Shown in pieces: positions 13,329-47,672 of a DNA stretch of 64,000 nucleotides. The translations under genes and the position numbers were made by a program. This stretch comes from Labia minor (lineage: Eukaryota; Arthropoda; Insecta; Dermaptera; Spongiphoridae), in assembly GCA_963082975.1 (NCBI GenBank), contig OY720348.1, positions 51,968,421-52,032,420 on the forward strand, read 5' to 3'. How positions within the stretch are numbered: position 1 is the first letter of the stretch; every line of letters begins with the position of its first letter. Under the pieces are notes generated by a model. The model made no database searches, was not told the DNA's origin, and saw only the letters and a program-made list of their open reading frames with translations.

Positions 13329-13829
13329 TCAAACATTATGTATTAATAAATGTATTTTTAAATTTGCTTTCCGATTACATTTCTTTTTTTTTACAATAAT
13401 TACATTCAAAAGGTTTTTCTCCTGAATGAATTATTAAATGTCTTGCTAAACTTGATTTCCGATTAAATTTCTTTTCACAATCATTACATTCAAAAGGTTT
13501 TTCTCCTGAATGAATTAATAAATGTGTTTTTAAATGACATTTCCGATAAAATTTCTTTTCACAATAATTACATTCAAAAGGTTTTTCTCCTGTATGAATT
13601 AATAAATGTTTACCTAAATTTGATTTCTGATTAAATTTCTTTTTACAATCATTACATTTAAAACGTCTGTCTTCAGTATGGCTTGGTTCAGTTTTTTTTT
13701 CTTGTTCAAATTTTCCGTCTAAATATTTAAATAAAGGTTTTAAATTTTGATTTTGATTTACAATTAAAATAACATCCAAATATTTGTCTTCAAGATAGCC
13801 GCAAACCTTATGTGTTTTTACTTATCATT
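13329..13829 (-). pseudogene. C2H2 zinc-finger paralogue, frameshifted
   Basis: The minus-strand open frame from about 13829 down to 13375 encodes a short lysine-rich leader (KYLDGKFEQEKKTEPSHTED) and three complete C2H2 fingers (helices NQKSNLGK, YRKCHLKT, NRKSSLAR) joined by TGEKP/SGEKP linkers. The fourth finger is broken after CNYCKKK, because an expanded A run adds four bases and brings in an early stop at 13375. Beyond the shift the intended frame still reads ANLKIHLLIHNV before TGA at 13329. There is no in-frame ATG: an upstream TAA and then a HINE-B fragment at 13862 replace the 5' end. The 3' flank, including AATAAA, matches that of the intact gene. Function as a DNA-binding protein is unlikely; an expressed three-finger fragment cannot be excluded. 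Confidence 0.8.
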
Positions 13830-15090: not shown

Positions 15091-15359
15091 AATTATTCAA
15101 ATATCGATATTTACATGGAACCGCAATCATCTGTTCTCTCTCTACATGGATTTCAAGCAAATTAACTCCATTTTTAAACACTTGGGATAAACTTCTTACA
15201 TCAAATCAATTAATCATATAATAGCATCCAAGGAAACAATAACAAACTAGACAAACAACAACGTTCCAGGTAATTCATTTATTTTACCAGTACACTTAAA
15301 TTAACAACAAATTATAAATATTGATATTATTAACAAATCATATATTTTGATTTTTTTTT

Positions 15360-15805
15360 ACTATCTCGCCAGAGATAGTATAGCGATCACGAAATTTTTC
15401 GATGTCGAGATTTTGATGTTTTTGTACGTTTAGAAGGTCCATGAGTCATTTTCACTAAGGTTGAAAAAAATGTCTGTGTGTGTATGTGTATCTAGACAAG
15501 ATTACACAAAAACGGTTCCAGCTAGTATAATGAAATTTGGTACACGGGCATTATTCAAAATTCGTAGTTTTCTATCAACTTTTGAGAAACGTAGCTCTTT
15601 TGGGAGAGGATCATTACCTACCACGTTTTGATTTTTTTTTCCTCTAAAGTGACCGTAAAAATAAAGATATATCTTTGATAGTTTTTCCCATGATTAAAAA
15701 TTGTATAAAACTGCTATATATAAAATTTCAGCTTGATTGAATTACTGAAAATACTGGAATTAATTTTTTAACAATGCATATCACGCGCCAGCACGTGGCT
15801 TTTTG
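15360..15805 (+). mobile_element. HINE-A copy, 3' truncated
   Basis: Starts after nine T residues with ACTATCTCGCCAGAGATAGT, the intact 5' palindrome, and runs through the microsatellite core to CGCGCCAGCACGTGGC, where family similarity ends without the 3' hairpin. Confidence 0.75.
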
Positions 15806-16540
15806 AAATTCTAAAAAAAAAATTAATGAAATGGACAATAAGGTAAAGATAAACATCTTGATAGTTTTTCATTCCTTAATATATTCTCTTTTGACACGAT
15901 AAATATATACTCTCATCTTTATATTCAAGATTTCCTTACATTTCACTATACACCATTTAATTATATACTATTTAAATTGAATATAACGAAATCTTTAGTG
16001 CATATATAAATTAAAATATTTTGCAATGAATTGCAATAATATAAACAAATTAATCCATGAAGGCGTAGATTAAGAATGACTTTTTGGATGCATTTGTTCA
16101 ATTCCAATTATTACTATAGTTTACATTCTCCCAATATACAGGGCAGGTCAATAAGTCTGTGCCTTTTTGAATTTTCCGTCTCTTAATTGAAATGGCAACA
16201 CTATCAGCTTGTCAACAAAAATCTATCAGCAGACCCCTTTCAAAATTTGATCCAGATGGATTTTTTAGTTTTTGTCTGACATCTTTTGAAGAATAAGGAT
16301 TCAAAAGTTAACATGGTCGTGTCAAGTCTGATATATGGTTTGTGGTTTAAATAATGCACCAAAAGTTTTATTTTGAAATTGAATCGTTGCCACAGACTAT
16401 CGTTACTATCTTAAGACGAATATTTGGTTGTTATTTTCATTGCAAATCAAAATCAAAAGTGAAAACCTGTGTTAAAAACGTTTATATTACTTATTAGCTA
16501 GTATATATTTTATAATTGATAATAGGTTAATCAATTTAAA

Positions 16541-19318
16541 ATGGATCTTTATTCGGAAGAAGACACAAAATATCCAATATATATAGGTAATTTTTATTTC
16601 AATCTTTTTTTCATCAAAAGTAATTAATTGTCCCTAAAATGATAATTATACAAAAAAGTTACTTCAAAATGGATTTGAATAAAACTTTACCAGTGCATTC
16701 CTTTTTTTATTCTAATAAACTTTTCTTATGAAATTTTTGCGGGACACTCCTAGAATACGAAGTAAAAACTATTAAAATTTGCATATATATCTGTGAAGTA
16801 GGTAAAATTTAAATTAATTTGTGAAAAAATTAAATATTTATTTAATAATAATTAAATTAAATATTATATAAAATAAAAAAAATTATTTTATAAATAAAAA
16901 AAAATTATTTTATAAATATAAAAAATAAAAAATATTCTATAAATATAAAAAATATTATTTTAAACAGAATTAAATATTATTTAATATGGGATTAAATATT
17001 ATTTGAATAAAAAGAAAATATTTTTTATAGCTAAAATTAAATTTTTATTTCTGATTTTTTCATCGAAAGTAATGTTAATGTCACTAAAATTATTTTTTTT
17101 AATATTATTTGTAGTAATCTTATTCCTTAAATTTAATTATTTAATACTTTATATATACTTAATATATAAAATTATAATAAATTAAAATAACGAAAACAAT
17201 TCTTTTTTAGGTCCTCTATATTCTTGTGTATATTGCCATACGAATTTTATAAGTGAGGAATTTTTATGTAAACATCTAAAAAAATGTTTTCATCAAAAAA
17301 TATTTTCTATTTTCAAAAATGAGTTAAAACTCAAAAAGGATACAGAGAAATATTTAGACGAAAAATTTAAAGAAGAAACTGATTCAAACCATACTGAAGA
17401 CAGGCGTTTTCAATGTAATTATTGTAAAAAGAAATTTAGTCAGAAATCAACTTTAAATAAACATTTATTAATTCATTCAGCAGAAAAACCTTTTGAATGT
17501 AATAATTGTGAAAAGAAATTTAATCAGAAATCTGATTTAGCTAGACATTTATTAATTCATTCAGGAGAAAAACCTTTTGAATGTAATTATTGTGAAAAGA
17601 AATTTAATAAGAAATCAAATTTAAATAAACATTTATTAATTCATTCAGGAGAAAAACCTTTTGAATGTAATTATTGTAAAAAGAAATTTAATGATAAATC
17701 AAATTTAGATAAACACTTATTAATTCATTCAGGAGAAAAACGTTTTGAATGTAATGATTGTGAAAAGAAATTTAATCAGAAATCAAATTTAGATAAACAT
17801 TTATTAATTCATACAGAAGAAAAACCTTATGAATGTAATTATTGTCAAAAGAAATTTAATCAGAAATCAAGTTTAGATAAACATTTATTAATTCATTCAG
17901 GAGAAAAACCTTTTGAATGCAATTATTGTGAAAAGAAATTTAATCAGAAATCAAGTTTAGATAAACATTTATTAATTCATTCAGGAGAAAAACCTTTTGA
18001 ATGCAATTATTGTGAAAAGAAATTTAATGTGAAATCAAATTTAGATAAACACTTATTAATTCATTCAGGAGAAAAACGTTTTGAATGTAATGATTGTGAA
18101 AAGAAATTTAATCTGAAATCAAATTTAGTAAAACATTTATTAATTCATACAGGAGAAAAACCTTTTGAATGCAATTATTGTGAAAAGAAATTTAATCAGA
18201 AATCAAGTTTAGATAAACATTTATTAATTCATTCAGGAGAAAAACCTTTTGAATGCAATTATTGTGAAAAGAAATTTAATGTGAAATCAAATTTAGATAA
18301 ACACTTATTAATTCATTCAGGAGAAAAACGTTTTGAATGTAATGATTGTGAAAAGAAATTTAATCAGAAATCAAGTTTAGATAAACATTTATTAATTCAT
18401 TCAGGAGAAAAACCTTTTGAATGCAATTATTGTGAAAAGAAATTTAATCAGAAATCAAGTTTAGATAAACATTTATTAATTCATTCAGGAGAAAAACCTT
18501 TTGAATGCAATTATTGTGAAAAGAAATTTAATGTGAAATCAAATTTAGATAAACACTTATTAATTCATTCAGGAGAAAAACGTTTTGAATGTAATGATTG
18601 TGAAAAGAAATTTAATCAGAAATCAAATTTAGTAAAACATTTATTAATTCATACAGGAGAAAAACCTTTTGAATGTAATTATTGTGAAAAGAAATTTAAT
18701 CAGAAATCTGATTTAGCTAGACATTTATTAATTCATTCAGGAGAAAAACCTTTTGAATGTAATTATTGTGAAAAGAAATTTAATGTGAAATCAAGTTTAG
18801 ATAAACATTTATTAATTCATTCAGGAGAAAAACCTTTTGAATGCAATTATTGTGAAAAGAAATTTAATCAGAAATCAAGTTTAGATAAACATTTAATAAT
18901 TCATTCAGGAGAAAAACCTTTTGAATGCAATTATTGTGAAAAGAAATTTAATGTGAAATCAAATTTAGATCGACATTTATTAATTCATTCAGGAGAAAAA
19001 CCTTTTGAATGTAATTATTGTGAAAAGAAATTTAATTTGAAATCTCATTTAAAATCACATTTATTAATTCATAAAGGAGAAAAACCTTTTGAATGTAAAT
19101 ATTGTGAAAAGAAATTTAATAGGAAATCACATTTAAATAGACATTTATTAATACATTCAGGAGAAAAACCTTTTGAATGTAATTATTGTGAAAAGAAATT
19201 TAATCAAAAATCAAATTTAGATATACATTTACTAATTCATAGAGGAGAAAAACCTTTTGAATGTAATTATTGTGAAAAGAAATTTAATCAGAAATCAAAT
19301 TTTAAAACACATTTATAA
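16541..19318 (+). CDS. Tandem C2H2 zinc-finger protein, two exons
   Basis: Predicted nuclear DNA-binding protein of about 717 residues. Exon 1 (16541-16586) starts MDLYSEEDTKYPIYI. The intron (16587-17210) has a GTAATT donor and TTCTTTTTTAG acceptor and joins in frame (split Gly codon). Exon 2 runs 17211-19318 with no internal stop. After an atypical finger (C21, C24, H37, then C41 or H43) and a Lys/Glu-rich stretch, 22 canonical fingers of 28 residues occupy about 84-700 with consensus CNYCEKKFNQKSNLDKHLLI followed by H. Most linkers are SGEKP; TGEKP, SGEKR, KGEKP and RGEKP also occur. Finger 23 ends KTHL-stop and lacks its last His. Between fingers the variation is largely at helix positions -1, 3, 5 and 6; the scaffold is nearly invariant. 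The target is unknown. No KRAB, ZAD or BTB domain is visible. AT-rich codon use matches the surroundings. Confidence 0.85.
16665..16795 (+). mobile_element. Foldback half-copy in zinc-finger intron 1
   Basis: Phrases TTTACCAGTGCATTCC, TAAACTTTTCTTATGAAATT and ACTATTAAAATTTGCATATA match one arm of the foldback at 56872-57417, in the same order. Only one arm is present. Confidence 0.55.
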
Positions 19319-19412
19319 ATACATAATGTTTAAAAAATAGACTTAATAATGAAAAGAAGATTTTCTTTGAAAATAGCTTATATACTTTATAGCATAAATT
19401 GTAGTTTAAATC

Positions 19413-19418
19413 AATAAA
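19413..19418 (+). promoter_or_regulatory. Poly(A) signal of zinc-finger gene
   Basis: AATAAA about 95 bp after the stop codon, conserved in the flank of the inverted paralogue. Confidence 0.55.
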
Positions 19419-19663: not shown

Positions 19664-19792
19664 AGCATTTTGAAATTAATTTAATCATATTTAAATTTTC
19701 ATTTAGTAATTCATACAGGTAAAAAATTTTTGTAATGAAATTTTATTATAAAAAGAAAATTTTTAAACCTTTATATTAATACATACTGTTTG
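19664..19792 (+). pseudogene. Degenerate zinc-finger relic
   Basis: AGTAATTCATACAGGTAAAA followed by AATGAAATTTTATTATAAAA is a decayed linker plus zinc-knuckle. It aligns with the minus-strand relic at 12890-13030, so the pair extends the inverted duplication beyond the genes. Confidence 0.5.
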
Positions 19793-19980
19793 AATAAAAG
19801 GCGTATTAATGCTGACTAAAGATTATTTTTGTTTCTTTTTTTGATTAATGTTATTTACTTTATAATTTTATGTTCAATTCAATAAAAATATTATATATTT
19901 AAATGATATTAATATTAATGATTGTATTTTGGTTATTAATAAAAACATTATTATCTAAATACATTTAAAAATCTTGTTTA

Positions 19981-20082
19981 TTATTCACCCACCCACCCAC
20001 ACACACCCACTAAGAGATAGAGAGAGAGACACACACACCCACACACCCACTAAGAGAGAGAGAGAGACACACACACACAAAA
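19981..20082. repeat. CACCCA / AGAG / CACA microsatellite cluster
   Basis: Two tandem units of roughly 45 bp, each CACCCAC-rich, then TAAGAGA-GAGAG, then CACACA. Short open frames here reflect the repeat. Confidence 0.85.
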
Positions 20083-23037: not shown

Positions 23038-23378
23038 ACTATCTCGCCAGAGCTGAATAATGAAATTTGATACACGGGCATTATTCAAAATTCGTAGTTT
23101 TCTATCAAGTTTTGAGAAACGTAACTCATCCGGAAGAGGATCATTACCTACCACGTTTTGATTTTTTTTTCCTCTAAACTGGCCGTAAAATTAAAGACAT
23201 ATGTTTGATATTTTTTCACATGATTAAAAATTGTATAAAACTGCTATATATAGAATTTCAGATTGATTGAATCGCTGAAAGTACTAAAATTAATTTTTTA
23301 ATGTTAACTGGCAATCACGCGCCAGCATGTGACGTGGTGCCATTAATAAAGAACCAAACAGTGGAGACCCTCCAGATA
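23038..23378 (+). mobile_element. HINE-A with internal deletion
   Basis: Begins TTTTTACTATCTCGCCAGAG and jumps to AATAATGAAATTTGATACAC, losing the microsatellite core. It ends GTGGAGACCCTCCAG then a T-rich tail. Confidence 0.7.
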
Positions 23379-25330: not shown

Positions 25331-26360
25331 TATATAATAAATACATATATAGTGGCTATTGTTCATTTTCATTTGGATAGTAGATGAAGATGATCACAAC
25401 TGGTTTGACGTTGGTCTGACGATTGGATTAAGAAACTGGGAGTAGGGAGGGGGTAATCGGAGGCTCCAGGCCCTATTATATAACCTCCTGCTGGATGGAT
25501 ATATGAAATGATTAATTAATTAATATTAATATAAATAATATATTAAAATATTTAATCTAACTAGTACTATAATTTTAAACACATACCTACTTTTTTATAA
25601 ATTTCTTGAATAATCAATCAATTAATAGTGCTTTTTAATCAGGCTTTAAAGAATTAAACGAGATTTGGATATTAAAAAAAATAGAATTTTCTTCTCAAGG
25701 TCACGCGGTAGTGTCATTCCATAAGCAATGCATTGGCAAATATTTATGAATTAACAATCTTAAATGATTTTCGATTTAATTGATTTTAGCATGTGTGTGA
25801 GAGGTAATAAATTAAAAATTAATTTCAAATTTGAAAGGGAAAAAGTTGAAATATGAAAAAGAATAATTATCTATTTAAGCGAATCAAAGAATTGTGTATT
25901 CGAGGTGACGGCATCATGGCCGCCGAAATCACATTGCATCTGTCAAAATTCATTAATTCATATTTAATTAAGGAAGCATCGTAAAATTATAGAATGCTAG
26001 TGAAAATGAATCTACGTTTCATATCGAATATTTTGGTATGCGTTTTGTCTATTGTTATCAGGAAATATTAAAGAAAGTATACCAACGACACTAAATAAAA
26101 ATATATTATAATTTTCACTTATAATTCTATAAAAATCCATTTTATTTAGAATCTGGAGAGAATTCTGTTGAATCCTTTGGTTTAGTGTATATTAAACACA
26201 ATTTTGCTATAAATTTATATAAAAGAAACAATATCAAATAGATGTGTTTTTTTTTTATTTTCAAAGAATATAATATAAATATGAGATACAAATTTATAAG
26301 AAACTTGGAGAGGTGGGTCCTCTCAGAGACATTTATAGGACATGTCTCACTCGTGAAATC

Positions 26361-26365
<5 letters not shown>

Positions 26366-26399
<34 letters not shown>
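26366..26399. repeat. (AT)n microsatellite
   Basis: About 17 TA units; the shorter allele of the paralogous site is at 50437-50466. Confidence 0.9.
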
Positions 26400-26405
<6 letters not shown>

Positions 26406-26463
26406 AGAGAATATACTCTCTTTAAATTTGGCGCGACCTCTCTGACTGTCGCTAGGTGCCTCA

Positions 26464-26745
26464 TCTAATACAAGAACTTTCGAGTATCTTTGAGCCATAT
26501 AAATAGATAGATATAACATATACAATAATAATATATATAATTAATTTACTGATTAAATTAAAATATATTTTAAATAAGAACACAAAAAGAAATGTATGTT
26601 TTATCTAATATACTGATTGAAACAAAATGGATGAAAACCTTTTACTACTCTTAACCAAATACTATGGACCACTCGGGGGGGGGGGTACAGGGGGCGGAGC
26701 CCCCGTCTAGGTGTGGAGAGCGCCGAAGGCGCTCGGAGCAGCTAG
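26464..26745 (+). mobile_element. Non-autonomous Helitron, exact ends
   Basis: 282 bp beginning TCTAATACAAGAAC and ending hairpin GAGCGCCGAAGGCGCTC, GGAGCAGCTAG. The duplicated locus at 50526-50545 reads GCCTCATCTAATATAAATTT with no insert. The element therefore sits exactly between A and T with no target duplication, begins with TC and ends with CTAG, as expected for canonical Helitrons. Its first about 40 bp resemble the 3' end of the local LINE (AAGAACTTTCGAG...AGAT repeats). No helicase or Rep coding, so it needs an autonomous partner. Confidence 0.85.
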
Positions 26746-47134: not shown

Positions 47135-47672
47135 GCATGTACTCTATGCATCTTCAGACATAATTAGGGTTATAAAATAGAGTGCACAGCAGGTGGCTAG
47201 AATAGGAGAGGAAAGAATATATAGGTGGGGGGACCGATTGGGAAATGTCCGTTTGGAAGATCAAGGAGGCGGACAATGTAGGAAGGGACGTGAAGGAGAT
47301 GGGAGAAGGTAGGTTGGATGGTTATGCCTCAAGAGTCTTGAGCCGTTCCGACTCGGGGGGGGGGAGGAGCAGAGGGAGCGGAGACCCGGGCGGCAAGCCT
47401 AGGGGGGCGGCACGAGTCGTCTTAAAAGTACTTATTCATTTTGTTTTTTAATTTTTTTACAATATAGTTCTAAAAAAAACTAAATTAACTTAAATTTACT
47501 TTATCTTTGGGGGAAGGGGTTGGGTTAGAGAAGGGGCGGCAAAATTATTCTCGCACCCGGGTGGCATATCCCCTAGGAACGGCTCTGCTCAAGACATGGA
47601 TATTTGGAGAAATGTGGTTGCTGCGGCCAAGAACTTTCGAGTTCCGTAGAGCCACAGAGATAGATAGATTAA
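47135..47672 (+). pseudogene. LINE 3' relic split by a hAT-like element
   Basis: 47135-47332 retains ARIGEERIYRWGDRLGNVRL-like coding with EADNVGRDVKEMGEGR. After the insert, 47589-47672 reads DIWRNVVAAAKNFRVP-stop and the GATAGATAG tail. Same LINE family as 29634. Frame is lost. The downstream open frames are artefacts of this relic. Confidence 0.7.
47333..47588. mobile_element. hAT-like non-autonomous element
   Basis: The left end AGCCGTTCC and right end GGAACGGCTCTG are inverted. The host LINE motif CTCAAGA occurs on both sides (CCTCAAGA / GCTCAAGA), a 7 of 8 match consistent with the 8-bp hAT target duplication. The interior has GGGCGGCA motifs. Confidence 0.65.

Follow-up and report, generated by a model that had tools for sequence, protein, structure and literature searches.

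Diversified contact residues on a homogenised zinc-finger scaffold in a large, mainly X-linked gene family of the earwig Labia minor

The X chromosome of the lesser earwig, Labia minor, carries a gene whose many zinc fingers are nearly copies of one another except at the residues expected to read DNA. The gene lies in a stretch of 64,000 nucleotides (X:51,968,421-52,032,420) that was analysed as a whole and is called here the window. The original prediction for this locus was a protein under selection for changing DNA targets, conceivably transposons, comparable to the vertebrate KRAB and insect ZAD zinc-finger genes.

The gene is on the plus strand, looks complete and has two coding exons, with a predicted spliced protein of 717 amino acids. 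A conserved block (16402..16540), which is a probable promoter or 5' UTR, stands ahead of the start codon, and the coding part of exon 1 (16541..16586) comprises MDLYSEEDTKYPIYI and the first base of a Gly codon, followed by a GT donor at 16587. The region of about 16402-16643, with exon 1 inside it, aligns at 78-82% to the DNA upstream of the paralogous loci L011, L015, L017, L019, L022, L024, L025 and L028, and in the remaining paralogues the alignment of the 5' block spans shorter or longer pieces. Exon 1 and its donor were recognised in 24 of 36 paralogues when up to 1000 bp ahead of each was searched; the 12 misses include nine genes with at most 710 bp of upstream DNA and L012, whose exon is farther upstream, and in the last two, a gene of L021 and another of L026, the exon was not found in the same search. 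The intron (16587..17210) ends at 17210 with the acceptor ttctttttta-g, and an A precedes GGT at the start of exon 2 in all 36 paralogues, the G itself being required by the search marker.

Exon 2 (17211..19318) is open up to a TAA at 19316-19318 and encodes, all on the plus strand, a degenerate classical finger with C2HC spacing, CVYCHTNFISEEFLCKHLKKCFH (17225..17293, hereafter finger 0), a charged spacer leading from it to the array (17294..17407), 22 complete C2H2 fingers of 84 bp each with variable contact residues (17408..19255) and a 23rd finger (19256..19318) in which the stop falls before the last His. This last finger ends FKTHL-stop, identically to that of paralogue L010. A candidate poly(A) signal, AATAAA, is found shortly past the stop (19413..19418, plus strand), and the same motif lies at most 200 bases from the stop in 20 of the 32 paralogues having enough DNA. 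Two further traces of the family are present in the window: a decayed finger remnant past the stop (19700..19761, plus strand; 79% match to the array, frames broken) and a second, truncated member on the minus strand (13375..13821), composed of the spacer and three complete fingers, with no finger 0 in frame. A dense CA/CCCA and GA microsatellite occupies 19980-20080, just downstream of the gene. A repeat at 15355-15800 recurs upstream of many family members and is possibly an element travelling in the same regions; the stretch 15527-15771 has a 91%-identical copy at 23057-23301.

As regards the array itself, the original prediction was accurate. It placed the array at 17414 to 19318, coordinates that coincide with the opening Cys codon of finger 1 and the final base of the stop, and its 22 complete fingers follow one another between 17408 and 19255 in an unbroken 84-bp register (TRF: period 84 bp, 22.8 copies, 91% match, 0% indels, 17407-19324). 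The scaffold it described as nearly fixed is indeed so, the Cys/His ligands, the KKF motif, Lys at helix position 1 and Ser at helix position 2 being invariant in amino acid in 22 of 22 fingers; six of the nine invariant scaffold codons are also unchanged in DNA, and Cys1, Ser2 and His1 each have a second codon. Variation peaks at helix positions -1, 3, 5 and 6 (entropy of 1.89, 1.87, 1.64 and 1.19 bits, against at most 1.08 elsewhere), and the residues listed for these positions match those observed. The regular expression behind this entropy count required the ligands, and tiling without that requirement returned the same 22 units.

The comparison of dN/dS by helix position, proposed together with that description as its check, puts the contact positions (-1, 3 and 6) above the scaffold in the array and across paralogues. 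Within the window array, the ratio of pairwise nonsynonymous to synonymous diversity is 3.06 at the contacts and 2.43 at position 5, and 0.34 at the remaining positions. When the 18 distinct window fingers are joined in a minimum spanning tree, omega is 2.49, 1.60 and 0.31 for the same three classes, with about 28 of 65 changes being nonsynonymous at the four helix codons when 12.7% are expected (p = 1e-9), and with 22 nonsynonymous changes at the contacts compared with about 16 synonymous changes in all (p = 0.003); strict independence does not hold for the changes along a tree of this sort, and these p-values are guides.

For the family, a marker regular expression recognised 36 genes among the related loci and the window. 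It missed L038, L039 and L043-L045 (five of the 17 loci of one search set), in which the gene is present with one residue of the marker changed, and which are outside the diversity figures. The arrays used were the 34 with at least seven units, leaving aside an L027 copy that lacks an array and an L021 copy whose 13 tiles were out of register, and the removal of 12 close relatives from these 34 left 22 separate genes. In all 34 arrays the contact value is above 2 and above the scaffold value. For the 22 genes, the within-array diversity ratio, which is the figure relied on, is 4.08 at the contacts (bootstrap 3.65-4.69), 3.62 at position 5 (3.05-4.35) and 0.57 elsewhere (0.49-0.67), and the top four of the 28 finger positions are -1, 6, 3 and 5, followed by the residue that opens the linker (2.13) and the one next after Cys2 (1.68). 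Spanning trees built gene by gene agree, with 3.64 at the contacts, 2.47 at position 5 and 0.62 elsewhere in the 22 genes, 4.00, 2.54 and 0.66 under a uniform site model, and 3.24, 2.34 and 0.64 when the out-of-register L021 copy is included (23 genes). All four ligands are kept in 613 of 632 in-register fingers.

A pooled count over 376 distinct fingers gave contact values of 2.2-3.2 and values of 0.7-1.2 for the other scaffold, varying with the edges used and with changes at Cys and His forced to zero by the regular expression, suggesting that recent changes have been under weaker purifying selection on the scaffold than one would gather from the diversity figures. A contact omega of 3.5, obtained from a collinear alignment of close paralogues, was set aside because reshuffling pairs non-orthologous fingers and because the pairs are not independent. 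The same pattern is also found in arrays located behind an in-frame stop, in five of five segments, which have 6 to 102 units and values of 4.2-9.4 at the contacts and 0.17-0.97 in the scaffold. Homogenised arrays carry the pattern along, even behind stops, and it therefore reports selection over the history of the family and not, by itself, selection acting now.

Finger 0 offers an internal control, because it is encoded by the same exon as the array and is duplicated with the gene. Its signature is C-x2-C-x3-F-x5-L-x2-H-x3-C, and all 36 genes have Ser, Phe and Lys at its helix positions -1, 3 and 6, as do the five genes missed by the regular expression; position 5 varies (Ser in 18, Cys in 17 and Tyr in one of the 36). 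Across 27 distinct exon heads omega is 0.16 for finger 0 and 0.84 for the spacer, in a set of paralogues chosen because they resemble the window array or the N-terminal marker, a choice that favours conserved heads. One fold in one protein is thus fixed at the contacts in finger 0 and hypervariable there in the array fingers, and a mutation bias toward helix codons in general fails to explain this contrast. The finger 0 helix, with acidic residues at positions 1 and 2 and Phe at position 3, is unlike a base-reading helix, and we infer that it has a role in protein contact. Finger 0 is a putative folded module judged by its residues: the N-terminus matched only zf-C2H2 in Pfam, at E 0.53 (matches to E 10 considered), its closest PDB chain was at E 0.11, and a single-sequence AlphaFold model of the N-terminal part (88 residues) had a mean pLDDT of 45.6, a low confidence that makes it unusable.

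Under selection for changing DNA targets, contact residues are expected to diversify while the scaffold is homogenised, and this expectation is supported by the window array, by the 22 separate genes and by the finger 0 control. Because the arrays behind stops share the pattern in five of five segments, it is in part an inherited record and does not prove that each array is under selection today.

Array turnover is fast relative to the surrounding DNA, as can be seen in copies compared over 700 bases (550 bp of 5' flank and 150 bp of exon head). The window gene differs from both L009 and L010 at 2 of these 700 bases, and L009 differs from L010 at 4; the number of complete fingers is 22 in the window, 19 in L009 and 44 in L010, and the finger orders differ. 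The 3' flanks of the window gene and L010 have 11 differences in 396 bases, while the L009 array runs into unrelated sequence, with a 3' flank non-homologous to that of the window. L029 and L031 have no differences in 700 bases and yet have 22 and 14 fingers, respectively. L029 and L030 match except for one finger, and some tandem copies still have identical arrays: L034 and L036 agree in 11 of 11 units, and L033 and L035 in all 17 aligned units, with a difference in the position of the stop.

Longer arrays contain block repeats of 5 (L014), 10 (L016) and 11 fingers (L010), and in L010 (X:53354900-53364800, minus strand) the frame that contains the 44 complete fingers stays open for 1402 residues, counted from the marker. 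At L013/L014 (X:17848000-17867400) a run of 98 fingers with a block period of 5 fingers is found in an open stretch of 2902 codons, and it is not counted as a gene because it begins behind a stop and no in-frame marker was found for it. At L016 (X:12604000-12613900) successive copies of a 10-finger tandem block have the same in-frame stop, which means that the stop codon was amplified along with the array.

The family is large. A pattern for exon 1, with up to three mismatches allowed, has 451 + 387 = 838 matches in the genome and none with a reversed-pattern control; this count covers the whole genome without a split by chromosome. The chromosomal distribution comes from two N-terminal searches, of which the best 150 relatives were taken (from 1336 candidates with a query from the X and from 1334 with a query from chromosome 2). 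With the X query, 111 of the best 150 are on the X, as are 50 of the 75 ranked 76-150; with the chromosome 2 query, 71 of 150 are on the X (3.7 times its share by length) and 79 are autosomal, and 31 of 76 clusters spaced more than 100 kb apart are on the X, which makes up 12.7% of the genome. Large autosomal clusters are present on C2 (about 17.0-17.4 Mb) and C6 (about 16.8-17.1 Mb). The marker has an internal stop in one of 150 best relatives with either query, and the open frame is shorter than 200 codons in 11 of 150 with the X query, indicating that some of its members are decayed or short.

Contigs C1, C2, C5 and C10 correspond to Labia minor chromosomes 1, 2, 4 and X (PMC11829193), and the assembly, of 604.50 Mb and from a male, had its X recognised by half coverage and has no assembled Y, according to the assembly paper, which also lists two mitochondrial scaffolds (PMC11937785). 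In this assembly, C10 (X) ends in a terminal (TTCGG)n repeat, and the mitochondrial contig C14 (26,497 bp) has inverted COI copies at 17173-18513 (plus strand) and 25478-26494 (minus strand).

With its tandem C2H2 arrays, GEKP-type linkers, many paralogues and diversity concentrated at the base-contacting helix positions, the earwig family belongs to the general kind of the poly-C2H2 expansions. As modelled, the gene belongs to neither the KRAB nor the ZAD genes: KRAB is not among the best 25 of the 28 families matching the protein nor, up to E 10, in the N-terminus, and ZAD (PF07776) is absent from the modelled protein, whose ATG exon is conserved and whose N-terminus has the zf-C2H2 match mentioned above and no other. 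Tetrapod KRAB-ZNF genes resemble the earwig family in clustering, in contact-residue diversification and in having an N-terminal module followed by an array exon, and differ in the KRAB domain; insect ZAD-ZNF genes are likewise an insect zinc-finger expansion, and differ in the ZAD. In PRDM9 the array is a coding minisatellite of 84-bp units that turns over fast and has diversified contact residues. These traits are common to the earwig gene, although no PR/SET domain precedes the array in the modelled earwig protein, and hundreds of genes are present instead of one. The lack of the KRAB, ZAD and PRDM9 domains in the modelled protein means that it cannot be filed under any of those families.

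The zebrafish FiNZ family, of cyprinid fish, is similar in its two exons, its short conserved N-terminal exon, its hundreds of copies, its concentration on one chromosome and its variable contacts; it is reported to comprise 684 genes, almost all on chromosome 4q, in which the exon of the array is preceded by a short N-terminal one, and its contact residues are enriched for dN/dS above 1 in two of seven clades (PMC10547256). Exon 1 in the earwig encodes 15 residues and a split Gly, whereas FiNZ has a 28-amino acid sequence (the two were compared by description only), and the earwig family differs also in the conserved finger 0 of its array exon and in being mainly on the X.

Among insects, the ZF271-like (APEZ) expansions of the milkweed bug and the pea aphid are described as independent and as having no domain besides the array, with expression support for 98% of the Oncopeltus genes (PMC6444547). 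The earwig family, which may likewise be lineage-specific, is comparable in being an insect expansion without KRAB, in their tandem clusters, in their 3-45 fingers in Oncopeltus and in their high turnover with pseudogenes (PMC6444547). The earwig family may be set apart from them by its conserved exon 1 and finger 0, in which Pfam recognises only a weak zf-C2H2, and by a copy number that looks larger (838 exon-1 matches, against more than 115 proteins in Oncopeltus; PMC6444547). In the literature searched on zinc fingers in earwigs and Dermaptera, on Labia minor and on earwig genomes, no description of the family was found, and 'zinc finger' is absent from three earwig genome papers by term look-up. 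The kind is thus already known from KRAB-, FiNZ-, ZAD- and APEZ-like expansions; what did not turn up, and is new in that sense, is the family, its N-terminal module and its concentration on the X.

The suggestion of a transposon target found no support within the window. A site of 66 bp was predicted with a simplified recognition code, and in a crude scan of the window alone, with low power, the real finger order did no better than permuted orders, of which 57, 47, 34 and 17 of 60 controls were as good for 6, 8, 10 and 22 fingers, respectively. The best match, near 47353, is not significant and is in a G-rich stretch. The window is about 27% GC overall and is very G-rich at 47329-47400.

Taken together, the locus holds an intact-looking member of a large poly-C2H2 family of the earwig, with a long array built of duplicated and reshuffled blocks of fingers, and the family is probably selected as a repressor following changing repeated DNA. 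The array would bind DNA with a sequence preference set by the order of its fingers, and its constant N-terminus, made up of exon 1 and finger 0, would be a common module that recruits a partner or dimerises, a role likened to the one that KRAB, FiNZ and ZAD are thought to have in their families, whose anatomy is similar in that the N-terminal part stays constant and the part that reads DNA changes. The family would be under selection to track changing repeated DNA, most likely transposons or satellites, and the rapid duplication of 84-bp blocks would supply new specificities much faster than point mutation alters the surrounding gene. Repression of repeated DNA is the most likely function by analogy: blocking the translation of zebrafish FiNZ genes derepresses transposons, and zinc-finger expansion, contact-residue entropy and repeat repression have been linked in other animals (PMC10547256).

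The bulk of the family being on the X raises the alternative of a conflict with sex-chromosome elements, in which the genes would have been amplified there because their proteins work during meiosis or on the chromatin of the sex chromosomes (in drive, suppression, silencing of the X or control of dosage), with X- or Y-linked repeats as targets instead of transposons at large. Amplified families under conflict are favoured on sex chromosomes (PMC10618873), and the X, with 12.7% of the genome, holds 111 of 150 relatives (X query), 71 of 150 (chromosome 2 query) and 31 of 76 clusters. This alternative is nevertheless rather unlikely, because 79 of 150 relatives of the chromosome 2 query are autosomal, the assembly lacks a Y (PMC11937785), local tandem duplication alone can yield accumulation on the X, and the zebrafish FiNZ genes likewise pile up on one chromosome arm (PMC10547256).

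It is less probable still that the array is mainly a coding minisatellite of little function, whose 84-bp units expand and homogenise by unequal exchange, the contact diversity being left over from an older family that was functional, and most copies now evolving nearly neutrally. The higher-order blocks of L016 (10 fingers), L010 (11) and L014 (5), the similar arrays behind stops, truncated members such as that at 13375-13821 of the window and the scaffold omega near 1 on some per-change counts (0.7 to 1.2) would all fit it, but 149 of the 150 best N-terminal markers with the X query are open, finger 0 is constrained (omega 0.16), the ligands are kept in 613 of 632 fingers, and nonsynonymous diversity exceeds synonymous at the contacts, which neutral exchange should not create. 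An ordinary diversification of transcription factors, with many host genes being regulated (in development or immunity, for example) and contact changes reflecting subfunctionalisation after duplication, seems the least plausible of the three: poly-zinc-finger families in general vary at contact residues, to judge from the KRAB-, FiNZ-, ZAD- and APEZ-like ones, but the 838 exon-1 matches, the near-identical N-termini and the reshuffling of arrays between copies whose flank and exon head diverge by 0 to 0.3% imply a turnover that is hard to reconcile with stable gene regulation.

If the preferred reading, a repressor family following repeated DNA, is combined with the location on the X, a bolder and quite tentative picture can be drawn, in which this undescribed, mainly X-amplified earwig family would be a sex-chromosome-based system of genome defence or drive, the invariant C2HC finger recruiting one silencing partner and the shuffled 84-bp blocks retargeting the protein very fast to X or Y repeats or to transposons.

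The X-heavy family with its 838 exon-1 matches is a larger fact than the single gene of the window. With it, earwigs join the lineages in which poly-zinc-finger genes exploded with an N-terminal module of their own, and in the earwig the zinc-finger expansion is tied to a sex chromosome. Since copies with only 0 to 0.3% divergence in flank and exon head already differ in their arrays, the rate of turnover of such arrays should be measurable within one species.
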